DNA of 36,901 nucleotides from Patescibacteria group bacterium. GTDB lineage: Bacteria; Patescibacteriota; Patescibacteriia; Buchananbacterales; GWA2-38-13. The notes beneath the pieces were generated by a model. It ran no database searches, was not told the DNA's origin, and worked only from the letters and a program-made list of their open reading frames with translations. Each line of letters begins with the position of its first letter. Within the stretch, counting starts at the first letter, position 1. The translations under genes were made by a program, and so were the position numbers. This document shows, one piece after another, positions 11,637 to 35,588 of this stretch. The stretch spans positions 1 through 36,901 of the forward strand of contig JAQTQO010000014.1 of assembly GCA_028712155.1 (NCBI GenBank), read 5' to 3'.

Positions 11637-11658
11637 GCCACCTTTCTAGAAAGGTGGC
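11637..11658. repeat. 22-bp perfect palindrome, left boundary of AT-rich island
   Basis: GCCACCTTTCTAGAAAGGTGGC; same arms recur at 13578-13601. Confidence 0.8.
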
Positions 11659-13577: not shown

Positions 13578-13601
13578 GCCACCTTTGCCATCAAAGGTGG
13601 C
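13578..13601. repeat. hairpin matching 11637-11658, right boundary of island
   Basis: GCCACCTTTgccatcAAAGGTGGC. Confidence 0.8.
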
Positions 13602-25525: not shown

Positions 25526-25579
25526 CATAAGGAAATAGACAACCGAAACCGAACAAGCTGAACCTTGAAAGGAGATAAC

Positions 25580-26515
25580 GTGAACGGAAACGACGTTCGA
25601 ACTCTGCGGGATGCGCTTCCCTACGTGCGCAAGTTCCGCGACGCGACGTTCGTCATCAAGTGCGGCGGAGAGATCGCCCGCGATGCCGGCGCACTCGACC
25701 TGCTCGGGAGCGACATTTCGCTGTGCGCCCACCTGGGCATCCACATCGTGCTGGTGCACGGCGGCGGGCCGCAAGCCGATGAGCTCTCCGAGCGTCTCGG
25801 GCTAGAGCCCGTCAAGGTGGGCGGTCGGCGCGTGACCGATGAAGCAACCCTTGAGGTTGCCAAGATGGTCTACTCGGGCAAGATCAACATCGACATCCTC
25901 TGCGCGCTCCGGCGCCATGGTCTCAAGCCCGTCGGCTTGAGCGGGGTGGACGGTGCCATCGTGCACGCCGTCAAGCGGCCGGCGCGGACGGTGCAGGACC
26001 CGGCGACGGGAATAGAGCGCGAGGTCGATTTCGGCCTTGTCGGTGACATCGTGCGCGTGGACGTCGGCCTGCTGCGCCACCTGCTGTCGGGGAACGACTC
26101 TAACGAGCACCTGTTCGTACCGGTGGTCTCGTCGCTGGGCGGCGACGATGACGGTCACGTTTACAACATCAACGCGGATACCGTGGCGCTACAGATCGCC
26201 ATCGCGATGGAGGCGAGCAAGCTGGTCATGCTGACCGATGCTCCGGGCCTGATGGCCCATCCTCCCGACCGCGCGTCGCTCATCTCGCAGGTCACTGCCG
26301 CGCAGTGCCGCGAAATGATCCGGTCCGGTGCGGTGACTGGGGGTATGGTGCCCAAGCTCGAGGCGGTCATCGCCGCTGTTGAGGGCGGCGTTCCGCGCGT
26401 TCACATCCTGGACGGCAAAAACCCCGACTCGCTCCTCCTGGAGCTCTTCACCCAGCAAGGCACCGGCACGATGGTGACCAAAGACGAGGAGGAAGCCCGT
26501 CCTCCAGTCCGATGA
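25580..26515 (+). CDS. argB: acetylglutamate kinase (ArgB-like)
   Basis: FVIKCGGEIARDAGALDLLGSDISLCAHLGIHIVLVHGGGPQADELSERLG...YNINADTVALQIAIAMEASKLVMLTDAPGL...GGMVPKLEA; SD AAAGGAG before GTG at 25580. Confidence 0.92.
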   Translation: MNGNDVRTLRDALPYVRKFRDATFVIKCGGEIARDAGALDLLGSDISLCAHLGIHIVLVHGGGPQADELSERLGLEPVKVGGRRVTDEATLEVAKMVYSGKINIDILCALRRHGLKPVGLSGVDGAIVHAVKRPARTVQDPATGIEREVDFGLVGDIVRVDVGLLRHLLSGNDSNEHLFVPVVSSLGGDDDGHVYNINADTVALQIAIAMEASKLVMLTDAPGLMAHPPDRASLISQVTAAQCREMIRSGAVTGGMVPKLEAVIAAVEGGVPRVHILDGKNPDSLLLELFTQQGTGTMVTKDEEEARPPVR

Positions 26516-26580: not shown

Positions 26581-26821
26581 CAGCCACCACAGTCAGCCCA
26601 AGTCTGATCCGCCTGGGGCGGACAAGGCACCGCTTTGCGACCGCCAGCGAGGTGAGCAGAAAATTAACCCCGTACCAATTTTGCCGTGTTTGTCCCGGTT
26701 TCCAGTGTTTTTTGCTGGCCGTTAGGTACGGCCGCGAAGCGCGCGGGGCGAATAGCCCCATTCCGTTGACGGCGAAGCGCTTCGCCAACGCCAATGATGC
26801 GAAATTGGTGCGGGGTAAATT
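26581..26821 (+). repeat. structured intergenic repeat, copy A
   Basis: AATTAACCCCGTACCAATTTTGC (26662-26684) pairs with GCGAAATTGGTGCGGGGTAAATT (26799-26821); internal GGGGC-GAATA-GCCCC and GCGAAGCGC/GCGCTTCGC. Confidence 0.7.
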
Positions 26822-27224: not shown

Positions 27225-27253
27225 TTGACACGTTGTCGTATCGGTGTTAAAGT
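27225..27253 (+). promoter_or_regulatory. promoter of histidine leader / hisI-hisG
   Basis: TTGACA - 17 nt - TAAAGT. Confidence 0.75.
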
Positions 27254-27263
27254 CCACCTGCGT

Positions 27264-27350
27264 ATGAACCAATCCATTATCAACCGCTGCCATTCCAGCC
27301 ATTCGCACGGCGTTCCTCATGAGGAACGGCGGTTGTTGATGGCTGTTTAG
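27264..27350 (+). CDS. histidine-containing leader peptide MNQSIINRCHSSHSHGVPHEERRLLMAV
   Basis: 28 codons with 4 His clustered at positions 10-19; followed by attenuator-type terminator upstream of hisI-hisG. Confidence 0.75.
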   Translation: MNQSIINRCHSSHSHGVPHEERRLLMAV

Positions 27351-27375
27351 ATTACATTCTCTCGGCTACTCAACC

Positions 27376-27412
27376 CCTGCCCCTCCTCGTGAGGAGGCAG
27401 GAGTTTTGTTTT
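27376..27412 (+). terminator. transcription attenuator terminator of his leader
   Basis: CCTGCCCCTCCTCGTGAGGAGGCAGGAGTTTTGTTTTT, closely similar to the argB attenuator. Confidence 0.8.
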
Positions 27413-27413
27413 T

Positions 27414-27617
27414 CCGCCGCCATAGCAAGGGAGTTTACGACCGCAGCGAGGTGAGCGGAAAAATAACCCCGCACCAATTTTGCCGTATGTCGTCGCGTGA
27501 ATGTTCCTTTTTGCGCCTACGTTCATAACAGCCGCGGAGCGCGGGGCCGAATAGGCCTTCCCGCTATGGGCGCAGCGCTCCGCCGTTGGAATATCCGCAA
27601 AATTGGTGCGGGGTTGG
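27414..27617 (+). repeat. structured intergenic repeat, copy B
   Basis: AACCCCGCACCAATTTTGC (27465-27483) perfectly complementary to GCAAAATTGGTGCGGGGTT (27597-27615); internal GGCC-GAATA-GGCC and GCGGAGCGC/GCGCTCCGC. Confidence 0.75.
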
Positions 27618-27685: not shown

Positions 27686-28108
27686 ATGCAGTGTTTACGG
27701 CCGAATTTCGCCAAACGCGGCGGACTGGTGACCGTGGTCGCGCAGGATGTTTGTACGAAAGAAGTGCTGATGGTGGCATCAGCCAACGAAGAGGCGTGGC
27801 GCAAGACGTTGGAGACCGGCATCGCCCACTATTGGTCCACTTCGCGGAACCGGCTCTGGAAGAAAGGAGAGGAATCCGGCCATGTGCAAATAGTTTTACG
27901 CGTGCTGGTGGACTGTGACGGGGATGCCGTGCTCTATCTGGTCGAGCCGAAAGGCCCGGCGTGCCACACCGCGCAACGGAGCTGTTTCTACCGCGATGCG
28001 GTTTCCGATGTTGCACGGGCCGCATTTCCGAGCGCGCGAGACGCGCTGGCCGTTGTCGATATACCCGTGAATCTCGGTGTTCAAGAGAAAGGAGTCAGCC
28101 GTGACTGA
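27686..28108 (+). CDS. hisI: phosphoribosyl-AMP cyclohydrolase
   Basis: [52 protein letters not shown]...[29 protein letters not shown]. Confidence 0.95.
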
Positions 28109-28994
28109 TCCCCTCCTTCGTTTCGCCGTTCCCAACGGTTCCCTTCAGGAGCAGACTCTGCGCGTGCTGCGCGAGGCCGGCTACCAACTGTCAACCCAGG
28201 TCGGGCGCGATGATCGGCTCGGCCGGTCCGACGGCATCGAGTTCTTCGTGCGCGACCGGGAAAACATTGCGAGCCTGGTCGGACATGGGGTGTTTGATGC
28301 CGGCATTACCGGCGCCGATCTCCGGATGGAGGAAGGGCAAGACGACGTGCCGGTCTTGTGCGACCTGCCGTACGGCCGCGCGACCAACGGCCCGGTCGTC
28401 TACGTGCTCGCCGCTGCGGCGGGTATCACTCCCGCGCTCTGGGAGTCGCGGAAAAAACGCCGGATCGGCGCCGAACGCGTGTGGCTCGCGCGCCGCTGCC
28501 TGTCGGACGCCGGCGTGCTGCGATCCGACGATCACATCGTTTCCCTGCCGGGCAAGGAGGAGGCCGCCATTGACGATGGCCTGTGCGACGCGGTGTTCGT
28601 GATGACCGAAACCGGTTCCAGTCTGAAGGCGCACAACCTTGCGGTCATCTATCCGCGCCTGCTGACGGTGTCGCCCCAGCTCTACTACCGGCCCGGACTC
28701 AAGCGCAAGCCGGAACGCTTCCGGTACATCGAAGCGTTGGGCGCAGCCATGCGCGCGGTGCTCACTGCCGACCAGGTCGTCGTGGTCACTTTCAACATCC
28801 CGCACCGTGCGGCCAAAACCCTCAAGCTGCCGGCTGCCGTTTCCCCGACCATCAGCAAAACCAAGGATCCGAAGTGGAACGCCGGCCAGGTGCTCATCCG
28901 GCGCGCGCAATTTCCGGCGACGCTCTTGCAGTTGCAGCGCGCCGGCGCCCGGAGCATCTTCATGCTCGACGTCGCCGCCTACCTGCCCCGTTAG
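28101..28994 (+). CDS. hisG: ATP phosphoribosyltransferase, long form (HisG with C-terminal regulatory-like domain)
   Basis: [25 protein letters not shown]...[11 protein letters not shown]...[16 protein letters not shown]-terminal [46 protein letters not shown] start with GAAAGGAG, overlaps hisI by 8 nt. Confidence 0.9.
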
Positions 28995-29176: not shown

Positions 29177-31792
29177 ATGGATAACCAGCGCCCTTTTCTG
29201 GCTACCCGAACCACCACCAAAACCGGCACCACGGTTGCCGCCACGGCCATGCTCACGCTGTCCGCCACGGCGCTGTTTTTGGCGTGGGGTATGCTGGTAG
29301 TTTTATCTGGGCATACCGTAATACAGCGTGAGACCGTCCACATAGCCTTTGTGGCCGCATCAGCTCCTGAGTCGATTTTTATCCGCGGCGATGTCGATGG
29401 CTCAGGTAAAGTTGATTTAAGCGATGCGAATAAAATTTTGTCATATCTCTATTCAGATGATCAGCCGGGCTGTTTGGATGCCTCTGACGCCGATGATAGT
29501 GGAAAAATTGAGGTGGCGGATGCGGTGTATTTGTTAAAATATTTATTTTTGGCCGGACTTCAACCGTCAGCCCCGTTCCCCAGTTTAGGTGCTGATCAGA
29601 CTCCGGACAATTTAGGGTGTCCTGGGGGATTACTTAATCTCAGCGGTTATCATATCCAAAATGAGACTTATTATGATGCGGCATTCGCACGAGCCTTTTT
29701 GGATGCAGAAAGGCTCGGTGCATCAGCCTTATATATTCCCCCCGGTAATTATCCCGTGACAAATGCCTTTCGATTCGTTAGTGGCGTGAATGTATTTGGC
29801 GACCCGCATTCACCGCCAGTGTTTGAAGGTGGATGCACGAATTGCAGGTCTAATACCTTTGTCAGCATTGAGCAAACCGATTTAAAAAATGTCACCCTTC
29901 GCAATCTTCAGTTTAAGAACATACGGCTGTCCTTAAACGGTAGTAACAATTACTATCAAGCGATTAAAAACGTAACTTTTACAAATTGCGACTTTTCCAA
30001 CGGATGGGAAGATGATGACTGGAACGCAAATTACCTGTCGCTCGTTTATTCAGATGACGTGACCATAGAACATTGCACTTTTCGCCGGAGTTCTCAGGCA
30101 TACGCGGGGCGTGGAATTGTCCTGTATCGAACCCACCATAGTGTTGTGCGTGATAGCTTTTTTGGTACCTCAAACAATCTTGAGTCAGCTTCAGTCAATG
30201 GTTATTTTAAAACTGCTATCAACATACAAGGTTATAAACCGGGCGAGCCACCCCTGCAATCAGATGAGATTCGTATTTTTCGCAATGTGATTCAACGGCA
30301 GCCTCCGGACAAATGTCCCACCGATGACCACGGTAACCCGATATGTCAGGATCACGGCATTTATGGCTGGGGATTTAATGGTGTTGATATTATTGACAAC
30401 CGCGTTGGCGGATGGGACACAACGGGGGGAGGTGGAGGAATAAAACTTCGCAATGGCAGTTTCTCGCGAGTGATGGGTAACGTGCTAACCTCGGGTATGC
30501 TTTATTATACTGACCGTGGAGACGCAGAACAGCCCCTGCCCGAGTTTTTCAAAAACGTTTGGGTCCACTCCAATACCGTGAATCTTGAGGGGCCACCGCC
30601 ACAAGGATATCGAGACATTAATTCCGCAGATTTTGCATTTGGCATCTATTATCAACGGAATTTCGATCTTAATGACCCCGTCGAGTGGCATGAAGAGGGT
30701 CTGGTATTTACCGACAATTATTTTCTTCGGGGCGGACAAATTAGCATCTTGGGGCCGGATCCTTCTGCTTTTTGCATCGCCAACAATCCTGAAGCCAAAC
30801 TTTATTCTCATGAAAAGTCTCAGATCTCGGAGATTTCGGAAAATTCTAGCTGTACGCTGGATGAAGTTTGGATGAATAAACCGGTTGATTTATTCGTGAG
30901 TGATTTCAACGGCGACGGGGTTGAGGATTTTATCTATTTTGATAAACATCCCGATACCACGGGCCGTAATCTGTGGACCGCTCACCTTAGCGACCTCTTT
31001 GGGTTTCACACGGTTCGTATCATGGGCGGAGATGGTGTCTCAAATTTTTCTGCAGAAACGAATCTTTATCGCGGGGGTGTAGGCGATTTTGACGGTGATA
31101 GTCATAATGAGATTATACTTCGCGGTAAGTGCGGCGCAGACACGCGTGCCTGCTGGCAAGTGTGGCGGTATGTAAGTGAAGGGATTGATGCACCCGATGG
31201 ATTGCTTGAAATGTCTGAGAGCGGGCCTGAGAGTGGTGAATCAGGCAATGCATTTCGGCCGGATAATGAATTCAATGAACTAATACTTGCCGACTTCAAT
31301 GGCGATGGCCGCACTGAAATTGCTTACGTCGGGATATGTGGCGATGATAATCAAATCTGCTTCCGGGTTCACCGCTGGGATGCGGAAACAAAAACTTTTA
31401 TTGCCGAGAAATGGGGCGGGGGTATGAGGATTTCCAGTGAAACTTTGACGTACGGATTGAACGCCGGTGACTTCAATGGCGACCGCCGTGCGGATCTTGT
31501 TTATCGCGGCCTTTGTGGCAACGATGCGCATGCCTGCTGGCGCGTGCAGCAAAGTGAGAAAACGGGAACGGGCTTTATTTTTTCGGCCAATGATTTCGGC
31601 AACAATGCATGGTTTTCAGCGGATTCGTCGTTGCTGGGCTTGCAGCTGTCAGATGTTAATGGCGATGGAAAAACCGATATCGGTTATCGCGGCAAGTGCG
31701 GTGATGGACATCCTTGCTGGCGGGTGCATCTAAGCACAGGAAGTTATTTCCAAAATGCAGTGGATTACGGAAATGATACACCCTTCGATTAA
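29177..31792 (+). CDS. surface protein: N-terminal anchor, dockerin-like domain, right-handed beta-helix, FG-GAP/VCBS-like repeats
   Basis: RGDVDGSGKVDLSDANKILSYLY...DADDSGKIEVADAVYLLKYLF; DFNGDGVEDFIYF, DFNGDGRTEIAYVG, DFNGDRRADLVYRG, DVNGDGKTDIGYRG. Confidence 0.88.
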   Translation: MDNQRPFLATRTTTKTGTTVAATAMLTLSATALFLAWGMLVVLSGHTVIQRETVHIAFVAASAPESIFIRGDVDGSGKVDLSDANKILSYLYSDDQPGCLDASDADDSGKIEVADAVYLLKYLFLAGLQPSAPFPSLGADQTPDNLGCPGGLLNLSGYHIQNETYYDAAFARAFLDAERLGASALYIPPGNYPVTNAFRFVSGVNVFGDPHSPPVFEGGCTNCRSNTFVSIEQTDLKNVTLRNLQFKNIRLSLNGSNNYYQAIKNVTFTNCDFSNGWEDDDWNANYLSLVYSDDVTIEHCTFRRSSQAYAGRGIVLYRTHHSVVRDSFFGTSNNLESASVNGYFKTAINIQGYKPGEPPLQSDEIRIFRNVIQRQPPDKCPTDDHGNPICQDHGIYGWGFNGVDIIDNRVGGWDTTGGGGGIKLRNGSFSRVMGNVLTSGMLYYTDRGDAEQPLPEFFKNVWVHSNTVNLEGPPPQGYRDINSADFAFGIYYQRNFDLNDPVEWHEEGLVFTDNYFLRGGQISILGPDPSAFCIANNPEAKLYSHEKSQISEISENSSCTLDEVWMNKPVDLFVSDFNGDGVEDFIYFDKHPDTTGRNLWTAHLSDLFGFHTVRIMGGDGVSNFSAETNLYRGGVGDFDGDSHNEIILRGKCGADTRACWQVWRYVSEGIDAPDGLLEMSESGPESGESGNAFRPDNEFNELILADFNGDGRTEIAYVGICGDDNQICFRVHRWDAETKTFIAEKWGGGMRISSETLTYGLNAGDFNGDRRADLVYRGLCGNDAHACWRVQQSEKTGTGFIFSANDFGNNAWFSADSSLLGLQLSDVNGDGKTDIGYRGKCGDGHPCWRVHLSTGSYFQNAVDYGNDTPFD

Positions 31793-31976: not shown

Positions 31977-34835
31977 ATGCCACAGATTTCTCGAGTAAAA
32001 AATCAAACTCAGATTTCAACATCGGCTACAACTATTGCCGCCACTGGCATGCTTACGGTTAGCACGGTCTCGTTATTATTGACCTGGGGAATATTGGCAG
32101 CAGCCGTTTTGTCGCCGGGCGTACATCAGGAAACTGACGGCAGCGCCATTGTTTGCCAACATATGGAGTTTGCAGGTTTACGCGGGCAAGATTTCGTAAA
32201 AATTGATGCTGGCGAAAAGGCAAATGCCAGGCGATTAAAAAAGCAGGTGCAGGAGAAGATGCAACTGGTTAAAAAAAATATTGAGGGTTCAGGGAGAAAT
32301 TACCAGAGCGTTAACGAAAAAAATGAATTTGCCAAAAACATCCAGGATTTTTCCAAAGAGTTCGTATCGATGATGAGAAAGAACCCTCAGGACGCTCTCG
32401 CATTGCTGCCATCCGAACAAGAGCTCAATGATCTGAATCTGCTTACGAAAAATTGTTTCCCTGAACCCCTCAAAGCGCTTGAGGGAGCGGTGGAAGTATT
32501 TCATGCCGATGATTTTAAAAATCAGAGGAGTAAAACCGATTATTATCTCAAAGCAGCGGACAGGAAAAAATATATTTTGCATCTACCGCGAATCGAAGAA
32601 AACATTGAATCGCGAACTAAACTGAGCATCCAAAAAGCATATCAGTTGAATAATGAAGTGTTGGTTGACGAATATATGATCACCGGCCAGCCGGGCAACC
32701 CGCCGGTCTTGGGGCCGCAAAGCGTCATGGCAATTTTAGTGAACACGACAGTGGTTGATAAAGTTTTGGGCACAACAAATGAATACGATACACCTATGCT
32801 GACGAAGGCCGAAGCGGCTAACTTGCTTTACGGTGATGTGAATAATTTTTACCAAATTAATTCTTACCAAAAGATGAGTGTCGTGGGGGCGGAGAATAAT
32901 CCGGGAAATGTCGCTGACGTTTTTGGGCCATATCATATTACCGTTACAGTAAACAGTTATTATTGTTCAAAAGACCAATCTTTATCGTGTAGCGGTTCGT
33001 GTCCGGACGGTAAGGGCAGCTGCCAGGCGTATATTGATTTTGGAGCAATGTATACCTCAATTATCCGGGCAGCCGATGCGGACATTGATTTTCGTAAATA
33101 TGGCGGTGTTTTGTCGTTTGTTTCAATGCCCTCGCTAGATATATGGCAAGGGATTTCCAGCGCGGGAAAAATATCAACCATCTCTAACGACTTTGGTACC
33201 GATGAGGTTAACCAATCAATAGCCGCAGTATTATTGGGTGATTATCTGGAAGGCAATGAAATTACCACGGCCCACGAACTGGGGCATAGTTTTGGCTCAG
33301 TTAATCACGCTGGATACCTTAATTGCGATAATTCTTTTGACTTCAATGTTGACTGTCGGTCGGAATACGGGGATTTGTATGACGTTATGGGTTTAGGGGA
33401 TTTTTTCCACTTTAACGCCAAAATGAAAGAAAGTTTTGGCTGGCTTGCGGCCGATCACGAAAATCACAAAATTATCACCGTGACAAAAGATACGAGCGAG
33501 CCGATATACCTTGACCCGATTGAGAAACAAGACGGTAAAATTCAGGGCGTGCGGTTTCGCCGAGGCCCTGACGATGGTTATAAAGATTTATATATAGAAT
33601 ACAGGCAGCCGGATGTTTTGGACGAAAAAATTTTTGGTAAGGCCCTTGAATTTGGAGCACAAACCGATGTTTTCTCCGGCGCGTTATTGCATCTTTCATA
33701 CATCGGTAGCTCTGTTTTACTTGATGTCCAGCCGCCGGCCAAAGTCTATAAAGATTTATTTTTAAGCACCATTCACGCAGCTACGGAAAGCGGGAAATAT
33801 TCATATTATACTGATCCTTATTCCGGCACGAAAATCGGAGTGGGCAAACCCGATCCGGTGCGCGGCCTGCCGGTGATGATTGATATCGGGCGGACCGATT
33901 TTACGCCGCCAGTTATAGATTCTTTTGAGTTTCTCAGTTATAACGAGGAAGACTGCTCTGGAAATTTTAAAATTACCGCCTCGGACGCTGAAACCGGCAT
34001 TTCAAAAATTGAAGCATTGGACCAAACATTTTTTTCTGATGAAGCGATTGTTCGGGTGCCCTCAACGCTTTTCAACTCCTCTATTGCCGTTACAGTTTTT
34101 GATAACGTGGAAAGTCAAGGAGGCGTTGGAAATAATGTAACAAAAATGAATTTTAATACTCCATTTAACAATTGCGACATTAAACCAATAATTACTGTTT
34201 CCTCGCCACTTTTTACTAATGATTATGTCTTTGAGCCAAATTATGATACTGCCAATGAAGTTGTCATAAAAGAAGTAATCACTAACCCGGCCATTATAAA
34301 TTTTAATATTACAGACGATAGCTTGTCTTCGGTATATATATCCGAATTTTTTAAGGATGATCTTTATAATTATGCGTCTAGAGACCCTCTGCGCAGTTTT
34401 AAAAATTTTTCTTATACATTACGCCGAATGCTAACTCCGGGCCGGCACGAGATTGTTATTGACGGCGTGAATAGCGGTCACTCCTATTTTGCCATTATAA
34501 TTTTTGACGTCGTTCAATCACCAAGGTTTGTCCGCGGGGATGTCAATCAAGATGGGCGAATCGATGTGAGCGACTCCGTGACCATTTTGGAAAATCTCTA
34601 TCAAGGTACGGCGCCGATCAACTGTCTCGACTCGGCCGACGTTAATAATGACGAAGAGTTAAACCTGACCGACGGGGTGGCTTTGTTGCAAAATCTGTTT
34701 ATGTCGGAAAAGCCAGCGGACGTTAATCTCAGTAAGACCTGCGAAATTGATTTGGCGATTTTCGATTTGAATACCGAAAGCTTGGATACCGAGAAAATTG
34801 ACTGCGGAAGTTTTACCGCGGGAAACTGTAACTGA
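31977..34835 (+). CDS. surface metalloprotease (M11/M6-like, HExxHxxxxxH) with C-terminal dockerin-like domain
   Basis: TAHELGHSFGSVNHAGYLNC...SEYGDLYDVMGLGDFFHFNAKMKESFGWL; C-terminal RGDVNQDGRIDVSDSVTILENLY...ADVNNDEELNLTDGVALLQNLF. Confidence 0.85.
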   Translation: MPQISRVKNQTQISTSATTIAATGMLTVSTVSLLLTWGILAAAVLSPGVHQETDGSAIVCQHMEFAGLRGQDFVKIDAGEKANARRLKKQVQEKMQLVKKNIEGSGRNYQSVNEKNEFAKNIQDFSKEFVSMMRKNPQDALALLPSEQELNDLNLLTKNCFPEPLKALEGAVEVFHADDFKNQRSKTDYYLKAADRKKYILHLPRIEENIESRTKLSIQKAYQLNNEVLVDEYMITGQPGNPPVLGPQSVMAILVNTTVVDKVLGTTNEYDTPMLTKAEAANLLYGDVNNFYQINSYQKMSVVGAENNPGNVADVFGPYHITVTVNSYYCSKDQSLSCSGSCPDGKGSCQAYIDFGAMYTSIIRAADADIDFRKYGGVLSFVSMPSLDIWQGISSAGKISTISNDFGTDEVNQSIAAVLLGDYLEGNEITTAHELGHSFGSVNHAGYLNCDNSFDFNVDCRSEYGDLYDVMGLGDFFHFNAKMKESFGWLAADHENHKIITVTKDTSEPIYLDPIEKQDGKIQGVRFRRGPDDGYKDLYIEYRQPDVLDEKIFGKALEFGAQTDVFSGALLHLSYIGSSVLLDVQPPAKVYKDLFLSTIHAATESGKYSYYTDPYSGTKIGVGKPDPVRGLPVMIDIGRTDFTPPVIDSFEFLSYNEEDCSGNFKITASDAETGISKIEALDQTFFSDEAIVRVPSTLFNSSIAVTVFDNVESQGGVGNNVTKMNFNTPFNNCDIKPIITVSSPLFTNDYVFEPNYDTANEVVIKEVITNPAIINFNITDDSLSSVYISEFFKDDLYNYASRDPLRSFKNFSYTLRRMLTPGRHEIVIDGVNSGHSYFAIIIFDVVQSPRFVRGDVNQDGRIDVSDSVTILENLYQGTAPINCLDSADVNNDEELNLTDGVALLQNLFMSEKPADVNLSKTCEIDLAIFDLNTESLDTEKIDCGSFTAGNCN

Positions 34836-35412: not shown

Positions 35413-35588
35413 CCCGCCGCCGCAGCAAAGGAGCGGAGCGACTGCTGCGAGGCGAGCGGGAAATTAACCCCGCACCAAGCTCCTTAACGAGTCGCTGGAT
35501 TTTGATTTATGAGCCGCAGGCGGTAGATTGCGCCAGATCAACAGGGCTATGGCAGTTTGGAATTCGCAAGCTTCGGTGCTGGGGTTTG
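35413..35588 (+). repeat. structured intergenic repeat, copy C
   Basis: CCCGCcgcCGCAGCA...TGCTGCGaggcgaGCGGG then AAATTAACCCCGCACCAAGCT paired with AGCTTCGGTGCTGGGGTTT. Confidence 0.65.

Follow-up and report, generated by a model that had tools for sequence, protein, structure and literature searches.

In the enterobacterial hisL attenuator, seven His codons stand in a row. His attenuators are known in Proteobacteria, and hisL (RF00514) combines a His-codon leader peptide with 1:2, 2:3 and 3:4 hairpins, a U-tract terminator, and downstream his genes. His attenuators with three to five consecutive His codons, likewise consisting of a His leader peptide, a terminator, and an antiterminator, have been predicted in three Firmicutes lineages that lack HisR, namely the B. 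cereus group, Peptostreptococcaceae, and Erysipelotrichales (PMC9413887). The same work describes regulons of HisR, a repressor of the TrpR family (PF01371), in which control is exerted by DNA binding (PMC9413887). In Chlamydia, trpRBA comprises a repressor gene, a putative leader peptide (trpL) in the trpR-trpB gap, and biosynthetic genes; this trpL has not been validated, and predictions make it a poor attenuator (PMC7755916). The leader peptide of Corynebacterium ilvBNC is made without a ribosome binding site, according to the passage of PMC10272879 that cites Morbach 2000. No description of leader-peptide attenuation in Patescibacteria was found in a literature search that took in a minority of the subscription papers and no preprints.

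The stretch of DNA analysed here (the window; 36,901 nucleotides) covers the whole of one contig (G000:C33) of a patescibacterial genome of 1.44 Mb, which is 95.8% complete. The genomes compared with it are from outside its genus and include two from its order, Candidatus Buchananbacteria RIFCSPHIGHO2_02_FULL_39_17 (G007, locus L068) and Patescibacteria isolate STC_49 (G010, locus L069). Positions 27225-27413 of the window very probably constitute a ribosome-mediated transcription attenuator through which histidine controls hisI-hisG. They share with enterobacterial hisL the parts listed above and differ from it in that no Rfam model matches, the His codons are interspersed (or paired, in the relatives), no Shine-Dalgarno sequence is present, and the genes that follow are an orphan hisI-hisG pair. 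The Rfam covariance models, including RF00514 (His_leader), matched neither the window nor any of 17 relatives; at a loose threshold the window gave implausible microRNA-type matches only, and the T-box riboswitch model had no match upstream of hisI.

A promoter of the sigma-70 type is found on the plus strand at 27225-27253 (TTGACA, a 17-nt spacer, and a TG-extended TAAAGT; 10 of 12 consensus matches), and transcription is predicted to start near 27260. The leader-peptide ORF (MNQSIINRCHSSHSHGVPHEERRLLMAV and a stop codon) occupies 27264-27350 of the same strand. It is probably leaderless, because its ATG is only 10 nt past the -10 element and a Shine-Dalgarno sequence is absent. The initial annotation had reported this ORF with His at codons 10 (CAT, 27291), 13 (CAT, 27300), 15 (CAC, 27306), and 19 (CAT, 27318) and with no consecutive His run, which is correct in every detail. 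The ORF is short (28 codons) and enriched in codons for the relevant amino acid. Four His in a short ATG ORF were attained in 45 of 5000 dinucleotide shuffles, and of the window's 252 short ATG ORFs, counted over both strands, no other has four His inside 10 residues. The extended -10 promoter, the absence of a Shine-Dalgarno sequence, and a repeat element farther downstream (27444-27615) had been missed in the initial annotation.

The 155-nt leader RNA has a folding z of -4.65 and contains three alternative structures, all on the plus strand. The 1:2 hairpin (27308-27331, extendable to about 27296-27345; -14.2 kcal/mol) contains the perfect 18-nt palindrome at 27311-27328 that had been assigned to this stem. 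Segment 2 of the antiterminator (27321-27345) pairs with segment 3 (27363-27388), as judged from the 2:3 fold (-30.3 kcal/mol) and the partner-swap test given below. The 2:3 pairing consists of three helices, 27321-27325/27384-27388, 27328-27332/27377-27381, and 27335-27345/27363-27374. The first two contain the pairings proposed before, GAGG with CCTC (27321-27324 with 27385-27388) and GGCGG with CUGCC including one G-U pair, and the third makes the antiterminator longer than had been recognized. Segment 3 also supplies, as proposed, the 5' arm of the 3:4 intrinsic terminator, a hairpin at 27376-27401 (-16.6 kcal/mol) followed by TTTTGTTTTT, with the U-tract reaching 27413. This terminator is absent from the output of a simple terminator scan of the window; its U-run begins two bases past the stem, and the stem is imperfect.

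The switch between these structures was modelled by blocking a ribosome footprint at each codon in turn and computing the terminator probability, and five footprints were compared. A ribosome stalled at codon 10 holds the terminator probability to 0.04 or less whatever the footprint. A stall at codon 13 gives values of about 0 with four footprints and 0.52 with the smallest one; codon 15 yields results that vary with the footprint, and codons 16-24 all give 0.98 or more. Every footprint thus places the switch between codons 13 and 16. With the ribosome at the stop codon, the probability is 0.94 in one run and ranges from 0.07 to 0.98 across the five footprints, and for some footprints it is low when the ribosome is paused at codons 25-29, which is counted against the attenuator. 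In the model, therefore, the control codons lie on the plus strand at 27291-27308: His10 and His13 are usable, His15 is borderline and dependent on the footprint, and His19 is too far downstream. The earlier view of all four His codons as sensors thus holds for His10 and His13, depends on the footprint for His15, and fails for His19. The 2:3 and 3:4 structures are mutually exclusive, and in the model it is a stall at the control codons that decides between them.

The transcription, translation, and response to histidine that we infer from this anatomy would proceed as follows. RNA polymerase would start near 27260, and a ribosome would initiate at the 5'-terminal ATG without a Shine-Dalgarno sequence. 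When charged tRNA-His is plentiful, the ribosome would pass the His codons and reach the stop codon, leaving segment 2 unavailable or paired in 1:2, so that 3:4 would form and transcription would end at 27404-27413. Under histidine shortage, the ribosome would instead stall at His10 or His13 and cover segment 1; segment 2 would then pair with segment 3, the terminator would be blocked, and hisI-hisG would be transcribed. In equilibrium folding with no ribosome present, the antiterminator is the preferred structure, so that termination would need the passage of a ribosome or early, co-transcriptional folding of 1:2. This preference is a limit of equilibrium folding, yet it is counted against the attenuator.

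A search of the relatives with the window leader DNA returned short chance matches only and no homologue, a result counted against the attenuator. The conservation of the competing stem in relatives, which the initial annotation had called for, is supported by the shared architecture and by partner swapping rather than by alignment of the window leader itself. HisG is present in 28 of the 380 genomes of the class. A first contig scan with the HisG of the window as query gave no confirmed match. A HisG alignment of eight members proved too diverse for use as a query; a HisR alignment worked. In 13 other genomes of the class, a His-pair ORF, a hairpin, and a U-tract terminator stand upstream of hisG or hisI-hisG, with leader peptides such as MNYLFSIFGHHYALP, MVAVINQKFNHHQINSPESR, MKKFLSKNLIHHQIISP, MNKSIFLIQTHHNTSSLSRKSCVVTDL, and MQLSLIIIHHHRYRRKG; ten of these leaders switch in the stall model. 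The relatives with the device range from Buchanan- to Roizmanbacteria.

Because the 13 class leaders had been picked by their His pairs, an independently chosen set was added, consisting of 80 loci from named genomes, mostly Patescibacteria, gathered by HisR similarity and not by leader. A TrpR-family gene (PF01371) stands upstream of his genes in several genomes of the class. A His-pair ORF with a terminator is found in 40 of the 80 HisR loci, and 31 of the 40 are predicted to switch in the model; none of the eight HisR loci named as other phyla showed a His pair. The model predicts no switch for the leaders L037/L074, L045, L046, L097, L104, L107, L137, L139, L142, and L143. One match, L141, was judged not to be a leader and was rejected.

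The leaders take three forms. In the first, a leaderless leader peptide is encoded at its own promoter (the window, L060, and L053; probably also L044, L045, and L142). In the second, the leader ORF directly follows hisR and overlaps or lies near its stop codon (L056, L057, L059, and L072). In the third, the control codons are in the C-terminal tail of hisR itself (L061/L147, L058/L092, L083, L088, and others). Many hisR genes end in tails like ...THHSSSVFKKS or ...NHHKTSSSSRKRLI, with a terminator about 17-40 nt past the stop codon, and HH occurs in 30 of the 48 Patescibacteria hisR tails of at least 9 residues. A clear Shine-Dalgarno sequence is present in none of the leaders, and a weak AGGA in two; relatives' leaders with their own promoter start soon after the -10 element. 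A leaderless leader peptide is thus a typical trait in this group. As a rule the His codons are adjacent, but interspersed ones also occur, as HQH in L078, which switches, and as HTH in L131; the pattern in the window is therefore not unique. From the sequences compared, the window device appears to be the free-standing form of an attenuator that is widespread in Patescibacteria and that elsewhere has its His codons after or in hisR.

In 27 of the 31 switching leaders of the HisR set, the switch falls 0-4 codons past the last His. Random placement would put 7.0 there, with a maximum of 18 in 200,000 simulations; the corresponding p-value is approximate, since related species are not independent. 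A MAFFT alignment of the hisR-tail leaders misplaced the 1:2 region, and covariation was therefore tested by swapping partners and not by counting columns. Among 41 dereplicated leaders, the cognate 2:3 pairing has a mean of -17.1 kcal/mol versus -10.0 kcal/mol for swapped partners (p < 1e-5), and none of 100,000 permutations matches the cognate pairing. For the window, the 2:3 duplex is -24.6 kcal/mol with the cognate partner versus -13.3 kcal/mol with swapped ones, and the cognate partner ranks 1 of 41. Switch-like behaviour at matched positions is shown by 5 of 107 other terminators in the same loci, as against 24 of 48 leaders including that of the window (p = 1.6e-10). Three tests, namely HH in the hisR tails, the position of the switch, and the cognate pairing, are in agreement. 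The proposal of a His-leader attenuator thus remains the best explanation of the locus, on the strength of the stall modelling, the architecture shared within the class and in the wider Patescibacteria, and the 2:3 covariation.

The leader is flanked by an argB-like amino-acid kinase gene (25565-26515, PF00696) and by hisI-hisG (27686-28994), as assigned by Pfam. On the plus strand, hisI (phosphoribosyl-AMP cyclohydrolase, 27686-28108; PF01502, E 2.5e-32) has the Shine-Dalgarno sequence AAAGGAG, and hisG (ATP phosphoribosyltransferase with a HisG_C domain, 28101-28994; PF01634, E 1.6e-18, and PF08029, E 2e-9) has a GTG start and a Shine-Dalgarno sequence; these matches agree with the earlier naming of hisI and hisG as the next plus-strand genes. 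Between the terminator and hisI lies the repeat element (27444-27615, strand unassigned), with 19-nt terminal inverted repeats. This repeat of about 172 nt, bounded by AACCCCGYACCAATTTTGC, is MITE-like, and one copy separates the attenuator from hisI; a second copy is found at 26645-26816, and further full or partial copies at 35441 and on contigs C8, C10, C26, and C37.

The repeat, together with a complete promoter and terminator enclosing about 150 nt, would suit a small RNA or short transcript that stands alone between its own promoter and a strong terminator and exerts no cis control over hisI-hisG. Such an origin is very unlikely, because a His-rich ORF directly precedes the his genes, the relatives carry this layout right in front of the same genes, and the swap test finds conserved an antiterminator pairing that a small RNA would not need.

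The attenuator precedes an incomplete pathway. Neither hisA/hisF (PF00977) nor hisD (PF00815) was found in the 95.8% complete genome, so that a complete histidine pathway is missing and hisI-hisG form an orphan pair; a histidyl-tRNA synthetase gene is present. The initial annotation had described classical hisL logic before his genes; the logic of attenuation stands, but the his genes are orphaned. hisA/hisF and hisD were likewise not found in three other genomes (G005, G010, and G250), and in G019, G325, and G044 hisD is absent and the PF00977 matches are weak or partial only. Incomplete assembly might account for a single absence, but because the same absence recurs in several genomes that are 92-100% complete, it is hardly the cause of the gaps. 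Several relatives with a similarly incomplete his pathway still keep His attenuators.

Three features, namely the interspersed His codons, the repeat before hisI, and the absence of most of the pathway, are counted against the attenuator. They might indicate an attenuator that was once functional and is now decaying, a reading to which the location of hisR on another contig would also conform: the leader has no adjacent His codons, hisA, hisF, and hisD are missing, and the repeat at 27444-27615 stands before hisI. Decay is nevertheless highly improbable, considering that no swapped partner gives the window a stronger 2:3 duplex than its own (rank 1 of 41), that the promoter is intact, that the switch position still fits His13, and that relatives with an equally incomplete pathway retain HH leaders.

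The genome of the window does contain a hisR gene, a member of the TrpR/HisR family (PF01371) located away from hisI-hisG (L065, G000:C26:21508-21759), and a TAGTAT...ATACTA palindrome overlaps the promoter region of that locus. In relatives, repeated palindromes of the TATTAATACA type, the likely operators, occur at promoters, either that of hisR or that of the leader; none was seen by eye at 27225-27263 of the window. A role of the 18-nt palindrome as DNA operator for a repressor such as HisR, with its RNA pairing as a by-product, is extremely unlikely. Perfect palindromes of at least 18 nt are indeed rare (two in the window), and a TrpR-family gene is present, but this palindrome is unlike the likely operators, is located some 50 nt inside the transcript, and corresponds to RNA hairpins in the relatives.

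The histidine attenuator thus preferred differs from the described systems in several respects. Compared with the Firmicutes leaders (PMC9413887), those of Patescibacteria often have hisR adjoining or containing them. The relatives resemble the HisR regulons (PMC9413887) in that a gene of the same family adjoins the his genes, but here the 3' end of hisR or the next ORF additionally forms an attenuator. The order of repressor gene, leader peptide, and biosynthetic genes recalls chlamydial trpRBA; in contrast to trpL (PMC7755916), the structure is backed by cross-species pairing in Patescibacteria. The likeness to Corynebacterium ilvBNC lies in initiation of the leader peptide without a Shine-Dalgarno sequence; from what the passage in PMC10272879 gives, that leader has codons for branched-chain amino acids and belongs to another phylum and other genes. 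The switch in the window belongs to an apparently undescribed set across Patescibacteria, in which the end of a repressor gene often forms part of the device.

If this is right, reduced and mostly uncultured bacteria of many lineages sense histidine starvation by ribosome stalling, and the repressor's own coding sequence is often the sensor, which joins repression to attenuation within a single gene. Conservation of the device also suggests that the orphan hisI-hisG pair, without the rest of the pathway, is still under the control of the histidine supply, and this makes the function of the partial pathway directly testable. As guesses, orphan HisI-HisG may act on intermediates shared with a host or make a nucleotide product induced by starvation. 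A broader reading is put forward tentatively: His attenuation would occur widely in Patescibacteria, would probably be ancient there, and would be integrated into the end of hisR, so that one transcript carries the repressor, a starvation sensor in its last codons, and the target genes, and in the lineage of the window a leaderless sensor peptide would drive an orphan HisI-HisG with a role other than making histidine, for example a starvation-induced nucleotide product or exchange with a host.

The genes downstream of the leaders in other lineages include hisI, hisG, hisS, and genes for a PNP-family phosphorylase, GNAT proteins, and a SLOG-family protein. In L070, L111, L115, and L125, hisR-tail leaders precede a PNP-family phosphorylase, a SLOG-family protein, and GNAT proteins, not his genes. 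hisR is found directly upstream of histidyl-tRNA synthetase-like genes in L120 (by Pfam), where its tail carries HH, and in L114 (by eye).

Elsewhere in the window, no tRNA genes were found. Downstream of hisG, 29177-31792 and 31977-34835 encode consecutive large proteins of secreted type with similar N-termini (...TTT..ATAMLT.S...L.WG.L) and dockerin-like repeats; one was scanned with Pfam and the other inspected by eye. A 22-nt perfect palindrome, GCCACCTTTCTAGAAAGGTGGC, is located at 11637-11658; some 1.9 kb from it, at 13578-13601, lies an inverted repeat of related sequence, GCCACCTTTGCCATCAAAGGTGGC.
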